Assembly (NCBI RefSeq): GCF_003171675.1
Contig: NZ_QFZQ01000001.1
Coordinates: 868,001 to 932,000, forward strand
Source: Reichenbachiella versicolor
Lineage (GTDB): Bacteria > Bacteroidota > Bacteroidia > Cytophagales > Cyclobacteriaceae
Reading direction: 5' to 3'
DNA: 64,000 nucleotides
Shown: piece after piece, positions 3,243 to 32,900 of the stretch
Position numbering within the stretch: the stretch's first letter is position 1
Layout of the letters: each line of letters begins with the position of its first letter
Notes under the pieces: generated by a model
Seen by the model: the letters and a program-made list of their open reading frames with translations, nothing else
What the model was told of the DNA's origin: nothing
Database searches by the model: none
Position numbers and translations under genes: made by a program

Positions 3243-3695
3243 ATGACTACATTAAAAGCAGGAGATAAAGCTCCAGAGTTCGAAGGCGTAATCCAAGACG
3301 GATCAACAATTAAGCTTTCCGATTATAAAGGGAAAAAAGTTATTCTTTATTTCTATCCAAAAGACAATACACCAGGATGTACAGCTGAATCATGTAACCT
3401 GAGAGATAACTACGAGGTCCTACAAGAAAAAGGCTATGTAGTACTTGGGATTAGTAGTGACGGAGAAGCTTCTCATCAAAAATTCATCACTAAGCATGAA
3501 CTACCGTTTGATCTGATAGCAGATACAGATAAGAAAATTCATGAACTGTTTGGCGTATGGGGAGAGAAGTCCATGTATGGAAGAAAATATATGGGGACAT
3601 TTAGAACTACATTCGTAATAGATGAAGAGGGAGTTTTAGAAGAAGTAATCACTAAGGTGAAGACTAAAGATCATACCGCACAGATATTGGCATAA
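3243..3695 (+). CDS. bcp: thiol peroxidase of the PrxQ/Bcp peroxiredoxin family
   Basis: A 150-residue cytoplasmic peroxiredoxin that reduces hydrogen peroxide and organic hydroperoxides with electrons from thioredoxin. The sequence has 'FYPKDNTPGCTAESC': C46 is the peroxidatic cysteine in the PGCT motif and C51 the resolving cysteine five residues later, the arrangement of atypical 2-Cys PrxQ enzymes. The conserved catalytic-site arginine is in 'FRTTFVID' near residue 120. Length is normal for the family. It is flanked by a terminator upstream and a repeat array downstream, so it is probably monocistronic. Product name is secure; nothing in it is odd. Confidence 0.95.
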   Translation: MTTLKAGDKAPEFEGVIQDGSTIKLSDYKGKKVILYFYPKDNTPGCTAESCNLRDNYEVLQEKGYVVLGISSDGEASHQKFITKHELPFDLIADTDKKIHELFGVWGEKSMYGRKYMGTFRTTFVIDEEGVLEEVITKVKTKDHTAQILA

Positions 3696-3737
3696 TGAGT
3701 TTTTAGCCATATTCTTGGTAGTCTATTGTTCGGGAAT

Positions 3738-4010
3738 GGTCGTGAGTCATTTGTACGCGGTCGGCGGCCTCCAGTACATGGTCGTCAGTCATTAGTACAT
3801 GGTTGGCAGTCTCTAGTACGTGGTCGTTGGTCATTAGTACGTGGTAGGCAGTCTCCAGTACGTGGTTGTGAGTCATTGGTACATGGTAAGCAGTCTTTAG
3901 TACGTAGTCGTGCGTCATTGGTACATGGTTGGCAGTCTTTGGTACGTGGTCGTGAATCATAGGTACATGGTAAGTAGTCACTAGTACAAGGATGTGCGTT
4001 TATAGTATAT
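3738..4010. repeat. tandem array of thirteen 21-bp repeats in alternating A/B types
   Basis: Thirteen consecutive 21-bp units begin at 3738 + 21n without gaps. A typical unit is ggtcgtcagtcattagtac plus at or gt. Odd-numbered units carry a 'cgtnngtcat' core; even units carry 'nggcagtctc/t', so the true higher-order period is 42 bp. The tetranucleotide GTAC is kept at the same place in units 1-12 and decays in unit 13. Copies differ by point changes but not by indels. Because 21 is a multiple of 3, both strands show open reading frames through the array (7- or 14-residue repeats); I regard these as by-products. There are no spacers, so it is not CRISPR. Function unknown. Confidence 0.95.
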
Positions 4011-4063
4011 CGTCAAGTAGTTGTTGACCCGTAGTCAACTATCATTCTAAGCTAAGTATCATT

Positions 4064-4101
4064 AAAACGGTTTTCTACTTTGATGTAGGAAACCGTATTT
4101 T
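4064..4101. terminator. hairpin, probable (bidirectional) terminator
   Basis: A 12-bp stem pairs 4067-4078 (ACGGTTTTCTAC) with 4085-4096 (GTAGGAAACCGT), one G-T wobble, 6-nt loop. It is flanked by AAAA on the left and ATTTTAT on the right, so it could stop transcription leaving the peroxidase/repeat region. The remaining bases to 4235 show no gene. Confidence 0.55.
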
Positions 4102-4287: not shown

Positions 4288-5493
4288 ATGTCAAAAGTAT
4301 TGATAATCGGCGCTGGTGGTGTCGGCAGAGTTGTGGCGTTTAAGTGTGCGCAAAACTCAGATGTATTTACTGAAATCTGTATGGCTAGCCGTACAGAATC
4401 AAAGTGCAAGGAAATTGCTCTAGATGTAGAAAAACAACTAGGTGTTAAGATTCATACTGCCCAAGTAGATGCTGATCATGTTGATCAATTAGTTGATTTA
4501 TTTAATAGAGAGAAGCCTTTCATGGTCATCAACGTGGCACTTCCGTATCAGGACTTGACCATAATGGATGCATGTTTAGAATGTGGTGTTCATTATCTAG
4601 ACACAGCCAACTATGAACCGAAGGATGAAGCCAAATTTGAATATAGCTGGCAGTGGGCGTATAAAGACCGTTTTAAGGAATCTGGGTTAACTGCTATACT
4701 GGGGTGTGGGTTTGATCCGGGCGTCACCAGTGTGTTTACAGCCTATGCTGCCAAGCATCATTTCGATCAGATGCACTACTTGGATATTGTAGACTGTAAT
4801 GGCGGTGATCATGGCAAAGCTTTCGCTACTAATTTCAATCCTGAAATCAACATCAGAGAGGTTACCCAAAAAGGGAAATACTGGGAGAATGGTGATTGGG
4901 TAGAGACAGAACCGCACGAAATACGTCAAGAACTAAGTTATCCAGAGATAGGGAAGAGATCATCATATGTGATATACCATGAAGAGCTTGAGTCTTTAGT
5001 GAAAAACTTCCCCACTATAAAAAGAGCAAGGTTTTGGATGACATTTGGAGATGAATATCTTACTCACCTTAGAGTAATTCAAAATATCGGTATGGCTGGT
5101 ATAGAGCCTGTAATGTTCGAAGGAAAAGAAATCGTTCCACTTCAGTTTCTCAAAGCAGTATTACCTGATCCAGGTAGTTTGGGAGAAAAATATGTAGGGG
5201 AGACTTCGATAGGGTGTCGTATCAAAGGCATCAAAGATGGTGAGGTCAAGAGGTATTATATTTATAATAATTGTAAGCATCAGGATGCTTTTGAAGAGAC
5301 TGGAGCACAAGGGGTGTCTTATACCACAGGAGTACCTGCTATGATAGGGGCGATGATGCTGATAACTGGAAAATGGACAGGAGCTGGAGTGTTCAATGTA
5401 GAAGAGTTTGACCCAGATCCATTCATGGAGCAGCTCATGACTAAAGGCCTACCTTGGGTAGAGCTACACGATATTGATTTGGAGGTACAATAA
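4288..5493 (+). CDS. carboxynorspermidine/carboxyspermidine dehydrogenase (saccharopine dehydrogenase family)
   Basis: A 401-residue NAD(P)-dependent enzyme of the saccharopine-dehydrogenase-like family. It is predicted to condense aspartate beta-semialdehyde with putrescine or diaminopropane and reduce the Schiff base, giving carboxyspermidine or carboxynorspermidine, the first step of the alternative polyamine route that needs no decarboxylated SAM. The N-terminus 'VLIIGAGGVGRVVAFKC' is the Rossmann nucleotide-binding loop; 'ILGCGFDPGVTSVF' is typical of this family. Assignment as polyamine enzyme rather than lysine catabolism rests on the adjacent nspC, with which it overlaps by one base. 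An upstream ATG at 4283 is out of frame. Substrate preference (C3 or C4 diamine) cannot be read from the sequence. Confidence 0.85.
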   Translation: MSKVLIIGAGGVGRVVAFKCAQNSDVFTEICMASRTESKCKEIALDVEKQLGVKIHTAQVDADHVDQLVDLFNREKPFMVINVALPYQDLTIMDACLECGVHYLDTANYEPKDEAKFEYSWQWAYKDRFKESGLTAILGCGFDPGVTSVFTAYAAKHHFDQMHYLDIVDCNGGDHGKAFATNFNPEINIREVTQKGKYWENGDWVETEPHEIRQELSYPEIGKRSSYVIYHEELESLVKNFPTIKRARFWMTFGDEYLTHLRVIQNIGMAGIEPVMFEGKEIVPLQFLKAVLPDPGSLGEKYVGETSIGCRIKGIKDGEVKRYYIYNNCKHQDAFEETGAQGVSYTTGVPAMIGAMMLITGKWTGAGVFNVEEFDPDPFMEQLMTKGLPWVELHDIDLEVQ

Positions 5494-29997: not shown

Positions 29998-32900
29998 ATG
30001 ATTAGAATATATACTCAAATAAAATATACATTATCAGTTTGCCTGCTGTTATGTATTTCTTTTGTTGGTTTTGCACAAACTGTAGATCTTAGTTTAAGTT
30101 CTCCTACAGCTACAGAGTCAGGAACAACAGTTATTACTGTGACAGCAACTACGAGTGCTAATGTTACTGGTGGAGATAAAACAGTTGATGTAACTGTTAC
30201 AGGTACAGGGATAACAGCTGGTGATTTTGGAGAAGGCTTGACTCAAGTAATAACTATTCTTAATAATCAATCTACAGGTTCTGTTGATTTCACGGTAACG
30301 GATGATTCAGATGCCGAGGGTGATGAGACAGCGACTTTTTCTTTAAGTAATTACGCTTCCCCACTTACAGCCGGGACGACAACTAGTGATGATGTTGTCA
30401 TCACTGATGACGATACATCTGTTTCCATCGCTGCAACGGATGCTGTAAAAGTAGAAGGAGCATCAGGAACTACCTCTTTTACTTTCACCGTCACTAGATC
30501 AGGAGACTTATCAGGTGCGAGTTCTGTTAATTATTCTGTTACAGGTAGTGGAGCTAATCCAGTAGATGGTTCTGATTTTGGAGGTTCCTTACCGAGTGGT
30601 TCTGTGAGTTTTATTGCTACAGAAAACTCTAAAATAATAACAATCGATATTGTAGGAGATAATGATTTTGAAGCTGATGAAGAATTTACGGTAACCTTGA
30701 GTGGTGAAGTAGGAACAGATTTGGGGACTACTACTGCTATAGGAACAATAACTAATGATGATACATCCGTTTCTATAGCTGCAACAGACGCTGTGAAATC
30801 AGAAGGAGCATCAGGAACTACTTCTTTTACTTTTACAGTTACTAGAATAGGAAATCTTTCAGGTACAAGTGATGTTGATTATGATGTATCTGCTTCTATG
30901 ACCAACCCTGTTGATGCTGCCGATTTTGGTGGGGCTTTTGCTAGTGGAACTATTAATTTTCTCGCCTCAGAAAATTCAAAACTAATAACAATAAACGTTA
31001 GTGGGGATACTGATGTTGAAGTTGATGAAGAGTTTATTGTAACCTTAAGCAATGAAGTTGGTACCGACTTGGGAACCACGACTGCTACAGGGACAATTAC
31101 TAATGACGATACATCTGTTTCCATAGCCGCAACAGATGCTACAAAAGCCGAAGGTAATTCTGGTACAACAACCTTTACTTTTACAGTGACTCGTTCAGGA
31201 TTGTTGACAGGTACTAGTTCAGTAGATTATGCTGTTACAGGTACTGGTGCTAATGCAGCTGATGCTACTGATTTTGGAGGTTCGTTACCTTCAGGAACAA
31301 TTAATTTTGCAGTCAGTGATGCTTCAGAGGTTATTAGTATTAATGTATCTGGTGATGCAACTTCTGAGTTTAACGAAGAGTTCACAGTTACTATTGATAA
31401 TCCGTCATCTACTCAAATCGGAACTTCAACTGCTACAGGAAGTATTACTAATGATGATATAGACACAACACCTCCAACACTTGATGCAGCTAATAGCGCG
31501 CCTGCTGATAATGATAATAATGTATTATGGTCTCAGGACATAGTTTTACATTTTAACGAAAATGTACAAGCAAATAATCCTTCAGTAACGGGAGACATTG
31601 TTTTATATGATGGATCTGGTGAGGTAGAGAGGTTTACCCCTGGTACAGTAGCGGTTGGAATTTCTAATAATCAAGTTACAATTAATCCAACAGTCGATTT
31701 TGTGCTTGGTGAAGATTATTATGTTTTAATAGAAACGGGTGCTTTAGAAGATATATTCGGGAATGACCTAGTAGCTATTACTGATCCTACAGTTTTAAAT
31801 TTTTCTCCGGTACAAGTAGTTATTAATGAGATAATAAACGATCCACAGAGCGACTGGAGCTCTGGAAGTTTTACAGGGACCGTGAGCGGAACTACAGTGA
31901 ATGAAGATGATGAATGGATTGAATTATATTCTGTTTCTGATAATGTTGATCTTTCAAGTTGGACTGTAGAAATTGATAATGGAAATGATGCCTCTATAGA
32001 GTGGAGTGGGAATTTTACTTCTACGTTTAATTTTCAGGTAGCTTCTGGTGCTGGATCATTAACAGATATTGACAATGGTGGTTATTTAGTACTTGGAGAC
32101 CCTACAGGAGCTGATAATCTGTCGCTCGATGTTACGCTAACTTTGAAAGATCCTAATGGTGTTGTAATTGATGAGGTCGTACTATCAGATGGTGGTGATC
32201 CTGATGGTAATGCTACTGATGGAAAAATATTTGATGAATCTGTTTTTAGGTTTCCAAATGGAGTTGATACGGGCGTAGATGCTGACGATTTTATTAATGG
32301 AGCAGCGAGTATAGGAGCAGCTGGAAATGATGGGCCAACTTTAACATTTGCCAGACAAGATCCATCAACTTCTACAACTGGTAGAGACAATGTGGTATTC
32401 AGAGCAACTTTTAGTGAAGATGTAACTAATGTAGATGCAACTGATTTTGTGGTCAGCGGCGTCACGAGTGCCGCAGTAAGTGGGGTTAGTTCAGTAGATG
32501 CATCCAATTATGATATCACCGTTTCAGGATACGGAGTAAATACAGGTACATTAAGTATTACTCTTGGCGCCTATACAGGAACTTACAATATTGTAGATGT
32601 TGATGGTGGAAATGCAGTGTCGTCAATTACTTCATCCCAAACATATTCCATTGTTGCTCCTGAAGTTAATTCTACAATTGCTGCTGTAACTTCTAGTGAA
32701 AGTGGGCTTATTGCGTATGAAAATTTTACTGCTGCAAATACATTGACTACAAGTAATGCAGTAAAATTATTTTCTTTTAATGTAGCAGATGATGCTGGCG
32801 ATGAATTACCGACTTTAATTAATTCAATAACATTAACACTTGCAGCAACTGATTTGTCAGAATTATCTGCGGTAGCAATTTTTGATGAGAGCAATAATAA

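Follow-up and report, generated by a model that had tools for sequence, protein, structure and literature searches.

The window, a stretch of 64,000 nucleotides of the Reichenbachiella versicolor genome, carries at positions 3738-4010 an intergenic array of degenerate 7-bp words, one of five arrays of the same family in this genome; this description is well supported. We are highly confident in assigning it to the class of heptamer-built intergenic array families. As to what the arrays may do, the reading that we tentatively favor is that of a heptamer-derived repeat whose units are kept as candidate binding sites two helical turns apart. Judged from the sequence, we give it somewhat less than an even chance, only slightly more than we give a minisatellite without function. 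The 7-bp substructure and the sister arrays had been overlooked in the first-pass annotation of this DNA.

Structure of the array

The array had been described as 13 indel-free units of 21 bp, in two alternating types and with a phased GTAC in 12 of them, and each of these observations held up: positions 3738-4010 were split into units without gaps, the order A, B, A, B was strict through all 13, and GTAC occupied unit positions 16-19 in 12/13, with GTAT instead in the last unit. The array matched itself at 160/252 positions at a lag of 21 and at 181/231 at a lag of 42, compared with a best lag-42 score of 100/231 elsewhere in the 64-kb window and 96/231 in 20 Markov-1 simulated 64-kb windows. 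Tandem Repeats Finder called the array at 3736-3988 with a period of 21 bp and at 3737-3987 with a period of 42 bp. The G/T-rich strand is the coding strand for the upstream and downstream genes alike.

Self-identity was highest at lag 42 (about 0.75) and reached 0.41-0.43 at lags of 7, 14, 28 and 35, against an average of 0.23 over lags not divisible by 7. The raised identity at every multiple of 7 indicates that the array is made of 39 heptamers (21 = 3 x 7, 42 = 6 x 7). The words are varied and mostly of the form RGTNNNN; among 41 words, comprising the 39 of the array and two outside it, G was found at position 2 in 40 and T at position 3 in 38. The heptamer is degenerate, and Tandem Repeats Finder reported the periods of 21 and 42 and not that of 7. 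Tandem 7-bp periodicity, the mark of heptanucleotide intergenic arrays, was present in the window array and in the sister arrays. We also scanned 157 records (766 kb, with the same arrays often present in several overlapping copies) for GT at a minimum of 8 out of 10 steps of 7. The matches were the window family together with L054, L081 (two), L103 and L125 from other Bacteroidota, and the same scan of 6 Mb of Markov sequence gave no match on either strand. Between two convergent genes at L103:5291-5466 we saw by eye a perfect inverted repeat of 31 bp with AGTCCTG heptamer tracts on either side. Each tract is sense to its own gene, and one gene's stop codon lies inside its tract.

A family of five arrays

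A blastn search of the own genome (5.25 Mb, 22 contigs) with the window array returned two more arrays and a short match to a third. The sequence-only model R1, constructed from 11 segments of 84 bp taken from four arrays, gave 19 matches at five places in this genome, and the fifth array (C17) was newly found by this model built from the other four. The coordinates of the arrays and of the other features are given in Table 1.

Table 1 Features in and around the window array, family arrays and other repeats
Feature	Coordinates	Strand	Remarks
Upstream gene, peroxiredoxin of the AhpC/TSA family	3243..3695	+	Stop ends 42 nt before the first full unit
21-bp tandem array, 13 units = 39 heptamers, A/B alternation of 42 bp	3738..4010	+	From sequence and Tandem Repeats Finder
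Post-array stretch, some more GT words and small inverted repeat (TAGTTG...CAACTA)	4011..4060	.	By eye
Terminator-like hairpin, 12 pairs then ATTTTATAAG (T-rich tail)	4067..4096	+	z -4.28
Downstream gene, saccharopine dehydrogenase family	4288..5493	+	Present in 8/8 genomes of the genus
Window array of the family	C2:871.7-872.0 kb		Model R1; GTAC type
Sister array	C18:397.9-398.1 kb		Model R1
Sister array C2:586	C2:586.4-586.6 kb		Model R1
Sister array	C20:156.9-157.1 kb		Model R1
Sister array	C17:130.6-130.9 kb		Model R1; GGG type
GGTTGATCACATGTAATGCTT/GGTTGATGAGATGTAACGTCT arrays, own genome	C2:192196-192465, C2:380437-380680, C2:439528-440057		L139, L188, L143 and neighbors
G005 CATGG element	L221:1343-1411, L222:7828-7896, L226:13809-13878 and around

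The A/B unit is common to all five arrays. Three of them carry GTAC, in 35/37 units, and in two sister arrays GGG replaces GTA in 27/27 units (GGGC in 17/27). In the window and C20 arrays A and B alternate strictly. The C17 array has one AA step, with a single 21-bp unit out of alternation at one point, and in C18 and C2:586 the order is imperfect when units are assigned by nearest consensus. The C20 and C17 arrays are the closest pair of the family, with identity up to 0.87. In most of the ten family pairs the identity between arrays was about equal at every 42-bp offset, and colinear copying of whole arrays was rejected for want of a standout offset.

Substitution pattern and register

Substitutions were counted against each array's own 42-bp consensus, the C17 array being divided in two on account of its AA step. 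Over the 1344 bp of the five arrays there were 170 substitutions and no indel breaking the 21-bp register, which bears out, now for five arrays, the earlier claim that spacing is held while sequence drifts. Constant spacing by whole helical turns, as looked for in phased protein-binding arrays, was found here at 21 bp. Counting independent events as at most one per new base per column and array gave 123 in all. Columns 16, 17 and 18 had 0, 1 and 0 events and columns 2 and 5 had 0 and 1, with 5.9 expected in each, and none of 50,000 uniform draws gave five columns with at most 1 event. Within the three arrays that carry GTAC, its four columns took 0, 1, 0 and 1 events, that is 2/95 against 18 expected, and the phased GTAC is retained there above its neighboring columns. 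That GGG replaces GTA throughout the two sister arrays argues against GTAC being the essential element.

The least-changed 11-bp arc of the three GTAC arrays runs from column 16 through column 5 and reads GTACnnnGTnG; it received 29/95 events against 50 expected (P = 0.00015, uniform). Conservation of a core above its spacer, likewise looked for in phased protein-binding arrays, was found, and the clustering of quiet columns into one arc was weakly significant when whole columns were permuted (P = 0.036). Inside the arc, columns 1, 20, 21 and 4 had 5, 5, 6 and 9 events compared with 4.5 expected. The unevenness among columns survived weighting by base type with all changes counted (P = 0.00065), and all of these probabilities are optimistic because the units are related by descent and the events are not independent. 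Column-specific constraint combined with a kept register, with probabilities read as optimistic, is what would separate a site from free decay.

These counts bear on the possibility of a non-functional minisatellite, in which slippage and unequal recombination would have expanded a heptamer tract to higher-order units of 21/42 bp, copies of which reached a few harmless intergenic sites and are decaying there by point mutation, with whole-unit changes of copy number keeping the register. We regard this as a serious contender, at odds slightly below those of the favored reading. Similar identity at all 42-bp offsets is what independent decay from one consensus would give. However, column-specific constraint is unexpected under free decay, and no register-breaking indel accompanied the 170 substitutions, where about 8 would be expected at an indel share of about 5 percent.

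Genomic neighborhood and orientation

All five arrays lie between genes, and each is oriented with its G/T strand as the coding strand of the gene that ends ahead of it. The distance from this gene's stop codon to the array, with boundaries from Tandem Repeats Finder, is 40 nt for the window array and 9, 180, 19 and 7 nt for the C18, C2:586, C20 and C17 arrays, so that the stop codon is at most 40 nt away in 4/5. Four family arrays are located between co-directional genes; the C17 array has convergent neighbors and is therefore uninformative on orientation. Four non-family heptamer arrays of Bacteroidota also lie between co-directional genes, two of which (L054 and L081) agree with the family orientation and two of which (G275 and G494) are opposite, giving agreement in 6/8 co-directional cases for family and non-family arrays together. 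The G494 array extends to the start of the next gene, and the L103 and L125 arrays have convergent genes on both sides.

The upstream gene of the window array encodes a peroxiredoxin that we take to be bcp-like, and the downstream gene is presumably carboxynorspermidine synthase-like. In a Pfam scan of ten proteins, those that could be assigned to a family were enzymes, the members of a two-component pair and one DUF4136 protein, whereas three proteins beside the C18 and C2:586 arrays had no family; the polA, glyS and TonB genes beside sister arrays were named by reading their translations. The five genes of the window between 713 and 6620 include no rep or par gene. Farther along the window, at 30403-31308, there is a 348-bp repeat in about 2.6 copies, perhaps encoding repeated protein domains.

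Possible RNA and coding roles

The terminator-like hairpin starts 56 nt past the window array, and its position 3' of the array suggests that the upstream transcript probably includes the array in its 3' untranslated part. A structured RNA had been among the possibilities raised at first. The window array gave a z of 0.32 as a whole and of -0.52 and +0.47 for two overlapping segments. Among ten segments of the five arrays z ranged from +0.47 to -2.55 and was negative in 8/10, the sister-array segments spanning +0.04 to -2.55. The four segments of the two GGG arrays (z -1.26 to -2.55) folded slightly better than shuffles, with the two lowest values (-1.85 and -2.55) in the GGG array C17; none of the GTAC arrays was striking. 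No Rfam family was matched at the gathering score in the window or in nine loci. With the window array no more stable than its shuffles and with no Rfam family, a structured RNA was rejected for this array.

An element acting at the RNA level, in which the array as the 3' untranslated part of the upstream mRNA would be bound single-stranded in a fixed orientation (for example by a cold-shock or S1-type protein) and would alter mRNA decay or readthrough, is quite unlikely. The agreement of the G/T strand with the coding strand of the preceding gene (5/5, four of them informative), the terminator-like hairpin and the somewhat better folding of the GGG-array segments are consistent with it; against it, the orientation rule fails outside the family, where two arrays agree and two are opposite, and the window array folds no better than shuffles.

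A protein-coding repeat, with a 7-residue repeat translated from one open frame, is extremely improbable. The window array has open frames of 92 aa on the minus strand and 78 aa on the plus strand, and one minus-strand frame has 1, 0, 0, 0 and 0 stops across the five arrays. However, 55.1 (sd 5.8) synonymous changes were expected in that frame and 53 were counted; for the most open frame of the plus strand, which has stops in 4/5 arrays, 63.0 (sd 6.2) were expected and 71 counted. The largest synonymous excesses, 1.6 and 1.5 sd, occurred in the two frames with most stops; no plus frame is open in all five arrays, and C2:586 is without an ORF of 50 aa (ATG, GTG or TTG start) over the array. The synonymous excess did not exceed 1.7 sd in any of the six frames, in agreement with the first-pass view that the open frames simply reflect a period divisible by three.

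Distribution among relatives

At E 0.01, model R1 detected no array in any of the 7 congeners. At E 1e-5 it matched 1/195 other genomes of the bacterial family (G149) and 2/394 other genomes of a phylum sample (G275 and G494), the two samples overlapping and stricter filters being used there. The phylum search returned 14 own matches, compared with 19 in the own-genome search, and the absence of the own C17 array from its results indicates that this search misses arrays. The G149, G275 and G494 matches are heptamer arrays of other composition. The first is a short AGTCCAT/GGTTGAA tract that begins at a stop codon, the second is an RGTAGTC tract of 50 copies, and the third, in a member of the Bacteroidota, has a 22-bp unit of 7+7+8 that reads GGTCGTTGGTCATTAGTTACTT. 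This look-alike, which may or may not be related by descent to the family, is a case of the sort that the first-pass annotation set out as refuting. It speaks against 21 bp as an obligatory unit, although that spacing is held in all five family arrays. The window family is thus intergenic and patchy among relatives (5/5 between genes; 0/7 congeners).

A homologue of the DUF4136 gene lies on the other strand beside the downstream gene in 7/7 congeners and had no match in the own genome; the peroxiredoxin gene is inside the 1.5-kb flank in 3/7. From the aligned end of the gene upstream of polA to polA itself, the own genome has 472 bp, array included. The same interval measures 136, 140, 182 and 142 bp in four congeners and 1325 bp in one, and the upstream gene was not found within 1.5 kb in two. 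For the TonB-type gene upstream of the C20 array, the C-terminal 120 residues were not found within 1.5 kb of glyS in any of the seven congeners. The DUF4136 locus in 7/7 congeners and the 136-182 bp before polA, against 472 bp here, suggest that insertion is tolerated.

Such tolerance, with an array where congeners have the DUF4136 homologue and a longer gap before polA, is in line with a minisatellite without function. So are the restriction to a lineage (0/7 congeners, 1/195 and 2/394, the latter three of other composition), the intergenic siting (5/5) and the patchiness of heptamer tracts in Bacteroidota, seen in the genomes examined here and described in MacGregor 2015 (PMC4679880).

Neither plasmids nor phages gave a match to the array sequence, and the 27-base unit pattern was found neither in viral contigs nor in a collection of 84,980 species genomes, from which the own genome is possibly absent. 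A mobile-element origin was rejected in view of the lack of any plasmid, phage or viral-contig match.

Proposed function

In the favored reading of phased binding sites, each unit would combine a core of 11 bp with a less constrained linker of 10 bp behind it. The core reads GTACnnnGTnG, its GTA being replaced by GGG in two sister arrays, and the cores would lie on one helix face every two turns. A host protein is predicted to bind the core along the array; such a protein would account for a register and core columns that stay constant while the linker drifts. Siting just after stop codons would keep the protein-coated patch off promoters, and likely roles would be local DNA organization, or a transcription roadblock or boundary. 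Against this reading stand the 0/7 congeners with an array, the change of GTA to GGG in 27 units, the weak clustering of quiet columns, the free change of columns 1, 4, 20 and 21 inside the arc, the Pfam scan of ten proteins, which identified no binding protein, and the 22-bp look-alike elsewhere; the absence from the 7 congeners means that the arrays do nothing essential to the genus.

Should the phased-core reading be true, these repeats would be natural platforms for binding at many sites, and a single genome would offer five replicates and two core types (GTAC and GGG) for tests of binding, spacing and orientation. Even if they are junk, they illustrate the way in which 7-bp tracts can mature into 21/42-bp units in bacteria without register-breaking indels. 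Such higher-order maturation is usually discussed for eukaryotic satellites.

Other two-turn arrays in Reichenbachiella

We surveyed 1,270,501 bp of the own genome with Tandem Repeats Finder for arrays with a length of at least 45 and at least 2.4 copies. The survey listed 39 arrays, and a naive test placed 28 of them outside long frames. Merging two neighboring pairs left 26 loci, and 13/26 had a 21- or 42-bp period; the C17 stretch had been chosen for its array, and the other stretches enclose the remaining family arrays. These 13 two-turn loci are the five of the window family and eight of other sequences, the latter including the three GGTTGATCACATGTAATGCTT/GGTTGATGAGATGTAACGTCT arrays and one at C20:203 kb; no 7-bp substructure was found in 6/6 tested of the eight. 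The F2 and F6 arrays tended the same way as the window family, with 13/43 and 5/21 events in the quietest 10-bp arc, an arc picked post hoc on small numbers. One F2 pair (192 against 380) had been aligned out of phase, and its identity was left out of account. Among the other loci of the own genome are some with 40-41-bp units, several of which contain hairpins, and some with 23-bp units.

The GGTTGATCACATGTAATGCTT / GGTTGATGAGATGTAACGTCT arrays form a second family with strict 42-bp A/B order, the longest reaching 530 bp; it has no sequence relation to the window array and no heptamers. Arrays with 41-bp units are present at C2:139158-139358, C2:558374-558591, C18:124801-124986 and C18:269983-270118; by eye, several have nested hairpins (for example CTGAAAG...CTGCAAGTTGCAG...CTTTCAG) with stems that vary from array to array but look complementary. 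The dispersed element at C18:165620-165817 and C18:369732-369942 is built of 40/80-bp units; its two copies share 90.7 percent identity over 311 bp with no net length change.

Six congeners, sampled over 1,040,000 bp, had 8 listed arrays, six of them with a period of 21 or 42. Three of these six were called intergenic (G005, in 400 kb) and three lie in open frames (two in G005, one in G003). G005 also has a dispersed element, at most about 400 bp long, in which CATGG recurs every 20-21 bp and diverged units have the same order at three places. Array G005a has a similar core and linker look, with a frame open over its full length; it may be coding and was set aside as evidence. At L241:11735-14074 (G003 C7) we observed a CRISPR-like array of about 2.3 kb with a 36-bp repeat and 30-bp spacers.

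At least two species thus have arrays of unrelated sequence with a period of two turns, and this is a lead and not a result because the gene calls are naive and the sample is small. A wider proposal would be that Reichenbachiella has many unrelated intergenic 21/42-bp arrays in which helix spacing and not sequence is kept, with a constant core and a free linker read by aligned proteins, perhaps as a satellite-like chromosome organizer; we consider it unlikely.

Comparison with known repeat systems

The arrays of plasmid RepA iterons and of sopC have units of about two or four helical turns and a conserved core, and the arrays described here resemble such iteron and centromere arrays in both respects. 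In contrast to them, the window array has no rep or partition gene alongside, there are several arrays per genome, and the cognate protein is only predicted.

Cyanobacterial short tandemly repeated repetitive (STRR) sequences have a heptamer unit and occur, like the present family, as short intergenic tandem arrays. They differ from it in unit sequence and higher-order structure, and they are described from cyanobacteria. One STRR example lies in the hoxW promoter region, according to PMC2670836. In the open-licence literature we found no 21/42-bp intergenic arrays of comparable form.

The nearest comparison is with the heptamer arrays in intergenic DNA that are described, in the relevant passages of MacGregor 2015 (PMC4679880), as patchy among Bacteroidota, Cyanobacteria and Beggiatoaceae. 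That paper, on TAACTGA direct-repeat arrays, reports long arrays in Gramella and Aequorivita and their absence in close relatives, considers binding of S1, cold-shock or Csr proteins as well as a role in rearrangement, describes the long simple sequence repeats of Mrazek 2007, and places the repeats of its main species mostly before start codons. The window array shares with the TAACTGA arrays, as presented there, a tandem 7-nt unit, intergenic location and patchiness among species. Unlike them, it has a degenerate heptamer with GT nearly fixed, 21/42-bp order and a location after stop codons; its words are mostly RGTNNNN, and perfect TAACTGA units were not found in it. By periodicity and place the array belongs to the broad heptamer kind and lies outside the TAACTGA family. 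The kind of repeat is known, its degree of order is unusual, and the 21/42-bp arrangement with its constrained core is a variant.
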